Below, piece by piece: positions 9,463 through 52,926 of a DNA stretch of 64,000 nt. The notes below the pieces were generated by a model. The model was not told the origin of the DNA and made no database searches. It saw only the letters and a program-made list of their open reading frames with translations. The position numbers and the translations under genes are program-made. The stretch comes from Microbispora sp. H11081 (GTDB taxonomy: Bacteria > Actinomycetota > Actinomycetes > Streptosporangiales > Streptosporangiaceae): positions 124,001-188,000 of the forward strand of contig NZ_JABBWV010000012.1 of the NCBI RefSeq assembly GCF_012999535.1. The letters run 5' to 3'. Every line of letters begins with the position of its first letter. Within the stretch, counting starts at the first letter, position 1.

Positions 9463-9491
9463 ACCATACCGTGTGATCGTCTCGATGTAAG
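9463..9491 (-). promoter_or_regulatory. candidate leaderless promoter of the marR gene
   Basis: Read on the minus strand, CTTACA (9491-9486), a 17-nt spacer and TATGGT (9468-9463). Transcription would begin about 7 nt later, at the GTG start codon 9456. The -35 part overlaps an imperfect GAAAnTTTC palindrome (9487-9495). Confidence 0.4.
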
Positions 9492-9502
9492 TTTCGCAGT
9501 CG

Positions 9503-9531
9503 TATCAAGTTGCTTGATAGCAAGTAGCTTG
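9503..9531. promoter_or_regulatory. overlapping palindromic operators, probable MarR sites
   Basis: TATCAAG-ttg-CTTGATA (9503-9519) is a perfect inverted repeat. It overlaps CTTG-atag-CAAG (9513-9524) and CAAG-tag-CTTG (9521-9531), making three nested dyads in 29 bp. The block lies between the divergent marR and esterase genes, upstream of the marR -35 element. Confidence 0.7.
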
Positions 9532-9579
9532 ATATGCAGCGCGGATGCGCGGCCGGCCTGCGGGCCATTCTCCTGCTCC

Positions 9580-9608
9580 TTGACCTCCGGCGGCCCCGCT
9601 CATATACC
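9580..9608 (+). promoter_or_regulatory. sigma-70-like promoter of the CE1-CBM2 gene
   Basis: TTGACC (9580-9585), exactly 17 nt, then TATACC (9603-9608). The expected transcript would have a leader of about 32 nt carrying GAGGAGGAG just before ATG 9647. Confidence 0.6.
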
Positions 9609-9646
9609 GGCTGGCGTCAGTAGTCGCGAATAACGAGGAGGAGCGG

Positions 9647-51141: not shown

Positions 51142-51534
51142 GTGATGCTTCTCCTTGGCCGGAGGGCGTCAGATGGGTGGCCGGGCCGCCACCCGCGCCG
51201 CGGCAACGGCAGGGAAGCGTGGCGGTCCGGCCGCTCGTTTCCGGGGAGATGCGCCCACGCCGAAGCGGCGAGGTAAGGGCCATGGAGGTCGCACTCGGAA
51301 GTGGTCGCCAGGGCTGGCCGCACGCATCGTCCCTTGGTGAGGACGCGTGCGCCGAACGCGTCGTGGTCGAACACTGGTCGAACACTGGACAGAAGGCTGC
51401 CTGGCTACGCCGGCGTGCCACCGCCGTCGAGCGTGAGACGCCCACATTGTTACGACGGTGCTACCGGGCGGTCAATAGCGCGCGATGACTTCCCAGGTCG
51501 ACGGTCCGAGCCGGCGACGGACGTACGGGACGGT
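51142..51534. other. long leader region of the PQQ-type dehydrogenase gene
   Basis: About 390 bp with no supported gene, lying between the promoter elements near 51590 and the dehydrogenase start. A tandem 11-bp repeat TGGTCGAACAC occurs at 51364-51385. I see no clear riboswitch or attenuator structure. Confidence 0.4.
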
Positions 51535-51622
51535 GGAAGTTTCGTGCGGGAAAGTACCGACTTTCGTTGACAACTGGCGTAAGTTCGATCTAGCGTCGCA
51601 AAACATACAGTCAAGTTGACAG
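51535..51622. promoter_or_regulatory. promoter cluster with GAAAnTTTC-type operators
   Basis: GGAAGTTTC (51535-51543) and the dyad GAAAGT-accg-ACTTTC (51550-51565) lie beside promoter-like elements on both strands. On the minus strand TTGACT (51615-51610), 17 nt, TAGATC (51592-51587) points at the dehydrogenase, placing the operators just after its start site. On the plus strand TTGACA (51567-51572), 18 nt, TAGCGT (51591-51596). A small perfect palindrome GTCAA-g-TTGAC sits at 51611-51621. Confidence 0.5.
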
Positions 51623-51795
51623 AAGTCGTACCCATTCCCGAATGGCTCGTCACGCCGAGTAGTCGATCTTGGCGCGTCGTCCGGGGGTGTACGCCCGGTC
51701 GCCCGCCCGCCGTCGCGCCGAGACGGGGGAAGTGCGAGTGCCACCCGGGCGGCACGCCTCCGGACGACGCGACCAGCCCTGCCGTCCGGTGCGGG

Positions 51796-52506
51796 TCATT
51801 CTCCGTCGGGCCGGAAGGGAACGCGCACGCGGCCCTCGGTGCGCATGAGCTCGAACATCTCGCGGATCGACGCGGAGTCGTTGAGGTGCGGGAACGGGAC
51901 GTCCGTGGGAGTGGCGACCCCGAGGAACGCGCACAGGGGCCCCCACCCCTCGCGCACGTCGAAGACCAGGAGCCGTTCCGAGGGCAGGGCGGACCGCACT
52001 TCGCCGACGTGCCGATGGTAGGCCGCGACCGCCCGCTCCTCCTCCGGCGGTCGAACGGGGGGCCACTTCTCCCCGAAGACCGACCCGCTGATGCGCTCGA
52101 AGATCGGCCGCAGGGTCGTCATCGCGGCGACGACGGGGCGGACGGCCTCCGGCGTCTCGTCCTCCCGCATCGGTCCCCGTGCGCTGAGCATGCTCAGCAC
52201 GCGGAAGCTGGCGTACCAGCTGTGCGGATCGCGGACCGTGAGCACGACCTTGGCGTGCGGGTAGGCCTCCGCCAGTTCCCGCCAGAAGAAGCTGGCGGGC
52301 CAGTCCACGCAGGACCGGAAGCCCTTGAAGACCTCGTCCCAGTCGACGGGCCCGCCGGAGCCGGCGGACTGCCATCGCCCGGCCAGTTCGGGATGGAGCA
52401 TGACCTCGAAGGTGTGGAAGCACGGCCCGAAGCCGAGCCGTTCCAGGGCCGTCTTCGTGGACGTCGTCCCGGTGCGCGGAAGTCCCGCGCCGATGACCTC
52501 CAGCAT
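51796..52506 (-). CDS. sulfotransferase-family protein
   Basis: PAPS-dependent sulfotransferase-like protein of 236 residues. The 5'-phosphosulfate loop is VIGAGLPRTGTTST at the N-terminus, and the 3'-phosphate region is KVVLTVRDPHSWYASF. LVFDVREGWGPLCAFLGV matches the later core. This compact type is widespread in fungi and actinobacteria, where acceptors are unknown. ATG 52506 follows GAGGAG. It is divergent from CE1-GH10-CBM2 but is unlikely to share its function. Confidence 0.85.
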   Translation of the reverse strand: MLEVIGAGLPRTGTTSTKTALERLGFGPCFHTFEVMLHPELAGRWQSAGSGGPVDWDEVFKGFRSCVDWPASFFWRELAEAYPHAKVVLTVRDPHSWYASFRVLSMLSARGPMREDETPEAVRPVVAAMTTLRPIFERISGSVFGEKWPPVRPPEEERAVAAYHRHVGEVRSALPSERLLVFDVREGWGPLCAFLGVATPTDVPFPHLNDSASIREMFELMRTEGRVRVPFRPDGE

Positions 52507-52926
52507 GCCGAGGCTCCTCGTCGTCGCCGTGCCACGTGGCGCGTTGCGCCCCGTTGTGCGTGCCTGCCCCTCCCGCCGGCGCCGCCCGACTCTCGGGACC
52601 ATGCCCGTCAAGGAGCCGTTCCTCACCGCGGTCCAGCGGCGTACGGGCTGGAATATTTCGGGACATGCATGAAACTTTCCACGTCTCCCTGCGCGGAGAG
52701 CGGTGCCGACCACTCCTGACCTCCCGGTCCTTCGCACGGCCGGATGGGCGCGGACCTGCGGCTTGAGTGGACTGAAAGTTTTATGCAGGCTGCGGAAATA
52801 TCAGGCGTCGCCGGGTCCGGTGGAGCGTGGCCGATGTCCCCCATCTCACAGCGGTACGGGGAGCCCGAGTCTTCGGGGTGCCATGACGCACGTCGGGATC
52901 GGCGCAACGGAGGAAGGACATTCCAC
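52507..52926. promoter_or_regulatory. 420-bp control region between sulfotransferase and CE1-GH10-CBM2
   Basis: No gene. It holds an exact GAAACTTTC (52671-52679), GAAAGTTTT (52774-52782, one mismatch) and GAATATTTC (52651-52659, one mismatch), all upstream of the xylanase. The two main sites are 103 bp apart, close to the 100-bp spacing seen at GH127. I could not place a confident -35/-10 pair. Confidence 0.5.

Follow-up and report, generated by a model that had tools for sequence, protein, structure and literature searches.

A conserved GAAA/TTTC palindrome at secreted polysaccharide-active genes of Microbispora sp. H11081 forms the core of at least three operator classes

The palindrome that is the subject of this report, GAAANTTTC, was already reported in other actinobacteria in 2012. 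In the cited passages of Anderson et al. (2012, PMC3377646), 36 sites related to TGAAANTTTCA are described in Actinospica robiniae, many of them exactly TGAAANTTTCA, together with 22 copies of a GAAASTTTC-centred site in Catenulispora acidiphila. Those sites lie upstream of cellulases and hemicellulases and are treated there as distinct from CelR, and their regulator is left unnamed in these passages; for Streptosporangium roseum only CelR-type palindromes are given there, and the de novo motif search was confined to CelR-poor genomes (PMC3377646). In the open-access literature we found no later paper on the regulator of the TGAAANTTTCA site. The excerpts cited here for two other systems with this core give CGAAACTTTCG as the BxlR operator at Streptomyces xylan genes (PMC4743123, PMC12772271) and, from a construct, GTTAGGAAACTTTCCTAAC as the operator of CsnR, a ROK protein, at chitosanase genes (PMC3048496). 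The CelR/CebR operator of Thermobifida and Streptomyces, TGGGAGCGCTCCCA, is a different palindrome from GAAANTTTC. We examined a 64,000-nucleotide stretch of Microbispora sp. H11081 (contig NZ_JABBWV010000012.1, positions 124,001 to 188,000, or C4:124001-188000 in our numbering; hereafter the window) and the 7.38-Mb genome, in 50 contigs, to which it belongs. An earlier note on the window had described GAAANTTTC as recurrent at the promoters of secreted polysaccharide-active genes and had pointed to a link with Streptomyces xylanase promoters, which is in print in the BxlR excerpts. In this genome the palindrome appears as an added upstream layer beside the known sugar-responsive switches.

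We found that GAAANTTTC is a real, conserved regulatory element. Three exact copies are present in the window (27508, 27608 and 52671) where 0.04 were expected, and none of 100 shuffles reached three. Across the genome, 60 exact copies were counted against a single copy of the reversed pattern, the central base being C/G in 47 and A/T in 13. Approximately 6 kb on either side of these 60 places were taken, with twenty 20-kb stretches as background; genes were called by a purpose-written script without curated annotation, and their starts may be off. The copies were intergenic in 57 of 60 cases, compared with 13% intergenic DNA in the background (binomial test; 7e-47). In the reverse test, 14 of 41 CBM2 genes, derived from 42 CBM2 matches in the genome, carried an exact copy within 600 bp upstream, compared with 0 of 153 background genes (Fisher exact test; 5e-11); with up to one mismatch the counts were 29/41 and 15/153 (Fisher exact test; 2e-14). 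The other 12 CBM2 genes had no site at all, several of them lying close behind a same-strand gene. When 64 palindromes of one composition class were scored on the 41 CBM2 upstream regions, GAAANTTTC scored 14 and the runner-up 1. A chance origin was rejected on the window count, the genome count and this ranking. The earlier note had proposed such a genome-wide scan for enrichment at genes of carbohydrate-active enzymes (CAZymes), and its claim of recurrence was borne out.

The genes faced by these sites are mostly secreted polysaccharide-active genes, and their reading as a conserved regulon, also advanced in the earlier note, is supported by the facing genes, the reverse test and conservation in two other genera. 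Pfam scans covered 71 of the 80 facing genes and 19 of the 20 background genes drawn. The facing genes comprised GH48, two GH6, two GH9, GH12, a GH5 protein and four GH10, and further matches were GH62, two GH43, an arabinofuranosidase (GH54-like), GH127, GH27, GH81, GH1 and three GH3. Others encoded a pectinesterase, a rhamnogalacturonan lyase (PL11), a glucose/sorbosone-dehydrogenase-type (GSDH) protein with CBM2, three GH18 proteins and an LPMO10, as well as sugar-binding proteins and LacI and ROK regulators. By hand count from the tables, the facing gene belongs to the CAZyme, CBM2 or ricin-lectin group at 37 of the 60 sites and is a sugar transporter, aldose epimerase or ROK gene at eight more. 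Among the remaining 15 are the three intragenic sites, sites for which no facing gene was called, and sites in front of RuvB, a glycine-betaine-type binding protein, a TAP-like hydrolase and unknown genes; at four sites (L136, L137, L142 and L163) no facing gene was called within 600 bp. Among the 19 background promoter genes, which were drawn at random, no match to a glycosidase, lyase or CBM family occurred, and four matched no family. The earlier remark that no copy was noticed at intracellular genes of this stretch held for the three exact places in the window and does not extend to the genome, where RuvB, the aldose epimerase and others face sites. A purpose-written signal-peptide rule was positive at 40 of 60 sites and at 42 of the 122 regions of the background; because known secreted enzymes escape it, little weight is placed on this comparison.

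The palindrome had been taken for one single element. We found instead that its core is common to three or more operator classes, which differ in the genes they accompany and in where they lie, and a single-operator reading was rejected on flanks and positions. Because one-mismatch copies at CBM2 genes mostly keep the outer TGAA..TTCA, and because TGAANNNTTCA occurs 50 times in the genome against 2 for its control, the nine-letter word trims conserved outer bases and lumps three operators; the full TGAAASTTTCA has 19 copies and its reversed control none. Motif scans easily lump the three core-sharing operators, which can now be told apart. Class A is AGGAAASTTTCCT with A+T-rich surroundings and accompanies chitin genes (GH18, LPMO10, GH3 and a solute-binding protein (SBP)/ROK pair), lying 30-108 bp from its GH18, LPMO10 and GH3 genes. 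The form TAGGAAASTTTCCT was found at L121, L124 and L151, and at L122 the ROK gene is divergent from the SBP gene. By analogy, class A is predicted to be the chitin operator of a CsnR-like ROK repressor, near start codons. It resembles the CsnR operator, as given in the cited excerpt, in its TTAGGAAASTTTCCTAA-like form with a ROK regulator, and differs from it in having chitin genes rather than chitosanase genes as targets, chitosanases not having been searched for here (PMC3048496).

Class C, CGAAASTTTCG, was found at LacI genes and at a sugar-binding protein gene, and is predicted to be the operator of BxlR-like LacI proteins, located at LacI genes, at a xylan-utilisation operon and near the -35 box of GH62/GH10/GH127 promoters. 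In a class-C-related form, GAAASTTTC has at least one non-class-B flank and its centre lies 14-16 bp from a TTGACA, which is followed by an ATTTCG or GTTTCG box. This TTGACA-linked arrangement occurs at a GH62, two GH10 and a GH127 promoter, reading TGAAACTTTCG, CGAAACTTTCT, CGAAAGTTTCA and CGAAACTTTCT (L125 6225, L125 13879, L145 6456 and, for GH127, window 27608). Class C at LacI genes and at xylan/arabinan promoters fits the BxlR operator of the cited excerpts in sharing its core and, for class C only, in the presence of CGAAASTTTCG at a BxlR-type LacI gene, L300, near position -44 in 11 of 33 orthologue promoters (PMC4743123, PMC12772271).

The largest class, B, is TGAAASTTTCA, or in looser form TGAANNNTTCA, and lies at cellulose, xylan and pectin genes. 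Unlike the BxlR operator of those excerpts, it has T..A rather than C..G as outer bases, a distal position, and cellulase and pectin targets; unlike the CsnR operator, it does not show the TTAGGAAASTTTCCTAA-like form with a ROK regulator. Classes B and C grade into each other, because many sites carry mixed flanks (TGAAASTTTCG, TGAAASTTTCC and CGAAASTTTCA are common). An asymmetric variant, TGAACGTTTCA, was also encountered six times (C2:49879, C3:17206, C12:127786, C12:509010, C13:2346 and C50:77539), in four cases upstream of CBM2 genes.

The distal position of class B is most evident beside the CebR/CelR box. Six of the 15 exact copies of TGGGAGCGCTCCCA in the genome lie within 160 bp of a GAAANTTTC site (four TGAAASTTTCA, one TGAAATTTTCA and one TGAAAGTTTCG); the box is present at six GAAANTTTC regions of this genome and absent from the others fetched, and one copy lies 46 bp upstream of the LacI gene L302. 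In genomes of two other genera (G131 and G055), the box, with at most one mismatch, was found near 12 of 31 TGAAASTTTCA sites. Taken over three genera, 19 promoters combine a TGAAA-type site with a CebR box of at most one mismatch, one site serving two promoters. The two elements stand 99-154 bp apart in 18 of the 19 and 55 bp apart in the other; in all 18 promoters with a called gene, the CebR box lies between the gene and the TGAAA site. At the divergent GH6/GH48 pair of L270 (G131), a single TGAAA site has a CebR box on each side. Three xylan/arabinan promoters (L125, L132 and L145) have the TTGACA-linked form in the proximal position and TGAAANTTTCA in the distal one, 100-116 bp apart.

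Looping between equal copies had been proposed for the pair 27508/27608. It was noted that 27608 is the proximal CGAAACTTTCT and 27508 the distal TGAAACTTTCA, as with the CebR boxes; simple looping is therefore spoken against, and other looping could still occur. At the second proposed pair, 52671/52774, the first copy is exact and the second mismatched. The helical phasing of the TGAAA-to-CebR spacing showed no preference at 10.5 bp, in a period scan that is indicative only, most promoters being counted twice. Compared with the TGAAANTTTCA site in the cited passages of Anderson et al. (PMC3377646), the sites here are likewise numerous and face GH48, GH6, GH9, GH12, GH10 and GH43 genes. They differ in that they do not take the place of CelR, the CebR/CelR box sharing the cellulase promoters with the site distal to it, and in that pectin, arabinan and galactan genes are also included. 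We did not find the combined CelR/CebR and TGAAASTTTCA architecture, its spread in Streptosporangiaceae, the three-operator split or the candidate protein in the open-access literature. In addition, a perfect palindrome, GGAAAGCGCTTTCC, stands just behind TTGAC near a class B site at L274:2973 and L276:3049 in G131, perhaps as a third substrate-specific operator.

The arrangement is conserved among relatives. The word TGAAASTTTCC, like site 52671, was found upstream of all eight Microbispora CE1-GH10-CBM2 orthologues examined, compared with two of eight for the 52774 word; in nine Actinomadura/Amycolatopsis relatives, TGAAASTTTC was present in none and CGAAACTTTCC in one. All 31 TGAAASTTTCA copies of G131 and G055 are intergenic, and by hand count the genes faced by at least 22 of them are homologous to CAZyme, CBM2 or lectin genes found here, among them GH48, GH6, GH9, GH10, GH12, GH43, PL11 and GH3-CBM2, two of the homologues being only 31% identical. 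Among 100 genomes of the family, 40 contained TGAAASTTTCA, in up to 30 copies, and among 148 genomes of the class at least six copies were encountered only in three genera of this family.

We sought candidate regulators among the 26 LacI proteins of the genome. Six form a BxlR-like core clade (support 90/98), with the helix TVSKV in five and TVSRV in one, and two more distant relatives bring the clade to eight (support 100/99); the label BxlR-like is taken from operator and neighbours rather than from comparison with the Streptomyces BxlR sequence. An exact GAAANTTTC lies within 400 bp upstream of four of the six core-clade genes, compared with 0 of the 20 other LacI genes. The statement that the regulator is not in the window held, yet one of these four, L303, with its own GAAANTTTC sites, lies only about 0.6 kb to its left, at the head of an operon that encodes an ABC transporter, GH39 and GH67. 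Another LacI gene, L299, adjoins a GH3 gene; the neighbours looked for beside a BxlR gene are the bxlEFG xylobiose transporter and GH3. Orthologues of L300 (C47:82015-83004) with 78-100% identity were found in 33 of the 100 family genomes, the next matches reaching at most 60%, with at most 21 candidates scored per genome. TGAAASTTTCA is present in 31 of these 33 genomes compared with 9 of the 67 without the orthologue. In G151 (15 sites) and G161 (9 sites), the L300 orthologue was the only LacI match at E<1e-90 among the 21 candidates scored. The promoters of the L300 orthologues hold an array of GAAA-type sites, with an exact GAAANTTTC in 32 of 33 and CGAATGTTTCG in the last, and CGAAASTTTCG stands 43-45 bp before the LacI start in 11 of them. 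It was also noted that GAAANTTTC lies 20-21 bp from CGAATRTTTCG in 21 of the 33 promoters (L164, L338-L369; starts approximate).

From these sequence comparisons, class B is probably bound by a LacI protein of the BxlR-like clade, the autoregulated L300 being the best candidate; that the protein is L300 itself is conceivable, with the doubts somewhat outweighing the case for it. LacI proteins can activate from upstream sites, as CcpA does, and activation by the class B protein is slightly favoured over repression, because the -35 box is distant and a partner site is missing at many promoters. Class B would then be a separate distal element before many cellulose, xylan and pectin enzymes, from which its protein may act on promoters that have their own repressor, CebR/CelR at cellulases and a BxlR-type protein at xylanases. 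Expression would depend on two conditions: the distal site would have to receive a general signal of plant oligosaccharides, and the repressor at the promoter would have to be released. We consider the chances evenly balanced that a LacI protein of the BxlR-like clade acts in this way over promoter-level, substrate-specific repressors. More tentatively, the whole plant-polymer degradome of Streptosporangiaceae might follow a two-key logic, commanded by one such LacI protein at distal TGAAASTTTCA, with CebR, BxlR-type and other repressors gating individual substrates approximately 100-150 bp downstream. If true, a general 'biomass' regulator of bacteria would stand above the repressors for individual substrates. 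The CebR/CelR and class B architecture in three genera offers a directly testable model, with candidate proteins, for the coordination of dozens of biomass enzymes in actinobacteria.

Several observations weigh against this reading. A proximal palindrome with arms of at least 7 downstream of class B is not clearly enriched (18/75 compared with 30/169 in the background), and a general proximal partner was set aside. A proximal operator is visible only for CebR, at six regions here, and for the xylan type, at three, and a GH62 promoter with a xylan-type site has no distal partner. Because many class B promoters show no proximal palindrome, the two-tier picture is established only for some of them. 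The distance from site to TTGAC showed no helical preference at 10.5 bp (p ~0.99), in a set of 44 hand-copied values from which those over ~150 bp and most non-CAZyme rows had already been left out; a value of 0.012 at 11.0 bp came from one of four periods tried and was not used. With regard to L300, the sites in its promoters are mostly CGAAASTTTCG or TGAAASTTTCG, with the full TGAAASTTTCA in 5 of 33 only. Its co-occurrence with the sites is a clade-level split, and therefore any other protein of the clade would show the same. The orthologue is present in two genomes that lack TGAAASTTTCA (G180 and G210), and nine genomes without the orthologue have 1-3 sites each, 16 in total; among eight of these 16 inspected, six seem, on a rough reading, to face secreted CAZyme-like genes. 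Because of these sites L300 is not strictly needed, and its candidacy as sole, necessary class B regulator is weakened. Lower-identity BxlR-like LacI proteins are also present in the site-free genomes searched, and LacI proteins are mostly repressors.

One alternative is that an unrelated, non-LacI global activator or catabolite regulator reads class B, the GAAA core having converged with the BxlR and CsnR operators. It would account for the distal position, for sites in genomes without an L300 orthologue and for class B at cellulose, xylan and pectin genes regardless of substrate, and CsnR, in the cited excerpt, is an example of another family reading the same core (PMC3048496). It sits poorly with the finding that GAAANTTTC accompanies LacI genes of a single clade but none of the 20 others, and with the full TGAAASTTTCA in 5 of 33 L300 promoters, and we regard it as a minority possibility to be taken seriously. 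Only slightly less likely is a second account, in which B and C make up a single operator, read by several BxlR-like LacI paralogues that act as ordinary repressors and all bind GAAANTTTC with small preferences, and pairs about 100 bp apart loop. The number of paralogues (six to eight, the TVSKV helix being common to most), the common mixed flanks (TGAAASTTTCG, CGAAASTTTCA) and the paired sites at L125, L128, L131, L132 and L145 speak for such an operator; however, at many class B promoters the only site is far from the -35 box and has no visible partner, and the pair spacings (100, 103, 109, 116, 156 and 221 bp) look unphased by eye. That the palindrome is a compositional or structural trait of A+T-richer promoters without regulatory meaning has a negligible chance of being right: upstream regions are indeed slightly A+T-richer than the genome (CBM2 upstream regions 68% G+C), but the next best palindrome of the same composition scored 1 against 14, the reversed pattern was found once against 60 times, and the site is conserved in other genera.

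Within the window, eight copies of GAAANTTTC with at most one mismatch were counted against 2.94 expected, and one of 100 shuffles reached eight. Because of this ratio, the five one-mismatch copies (9487, 23591, 51535, 52651 and 52774), taken by themselves, are at chance level and show no excess in the window. The earlier note had left out 52651 (GGAATATTTCG). Those at 23591 and 52774 have a single difference from TGAAASTTTCA and are credible, and those at 9487 and 51535 have two differences and are weak. The sites and genes are collected in Table 1.

Table 1. Palindrome sites and neighbouring genes, in window coordinates.
Feature	Position	Strand	Remarks
Class B (distal) site TGAAACTTTCA	27507..27517		Exact match; GH27/GH127 divergent promoter region
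Proximal xylan/arabinan-type site CGAAACTTTCT	27607..27617	+	Arrangement similar to a GH62 and two GH10 promoters
TTGACA	27628-27633		Starts 16 bp from centre of CGAAACTTTCT at 27607..27617; then TGTTTCG
GH27 alpha-galactosidase with ricin-type lectin domain	25513..27111	-	Pfam (L132:4514-6112)
GH127 protein with ricin-type lectin domain	27841..30585	+	Pfam (L132:6842-9586)
Site TGAAACTTTCC, upstream of CE1-GH10-CBM2	52670..52680		Exact match
One-mismatch site TGAAAGTTTTA	52773..52783		103 bp downstream of site 52670..52680
CE1-GH10-CBM2 protein, 806 aa	52927..55347	+	Pfam: GH10, CBM2, esterase
One-mismatch site TGGAAGTTTCA, upstream of GH44-CBM2	23590..23600		One mismatch to TGAAASTTTCA
GH44-CBM2 protein	21234..23387	-	Pfam
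Weak site TGTAAGTTTCG, upstream of CE1-CBM2	9486..9496		Two mismatches to TGAAASTTTCA; alone at chance level
Esterase (CE1-like) with CBM2	9647..11083	+	Pfam
Weak site TGGAAGTTTCG	51534..51544		~394 bp from called dehydrogenase start; alone at chance level
GSDH protein with PKD domain	49012..51141	-	Pfam

The CE1-GH10-CBM2 protein shares 80-85% identity, over the best segment, with four full-length Microbispora proteins, and elsewhere in the genome a GSDH-CBM2 gene (L168) has an exact GAAANTTTC site in front of it. The longer dyad at 51550-51565, GAAAGTACCGACTTTC, has GAAAGT and ACTTTC-like arms flanking a spacer, a geometry unlike that of GAAANTTTC. Outside the window, two perfectly matching inverted arms of 18 bp, separated by 2 bp, were found at L149 (C12:952000-964500), approximately 86 bp upstream of a 109-aa gene. 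The left end of the window (1-8984, with C4:122357-123424 just outside) holds a glucuronoxylan-type operon with an ABC transporter permease, a solute-binding protein, GH39, GH67 and a GDSL esterase; a divergently oriented LacI gene stands at its head, and the region between the two contains two GAAAWTTTC sites.

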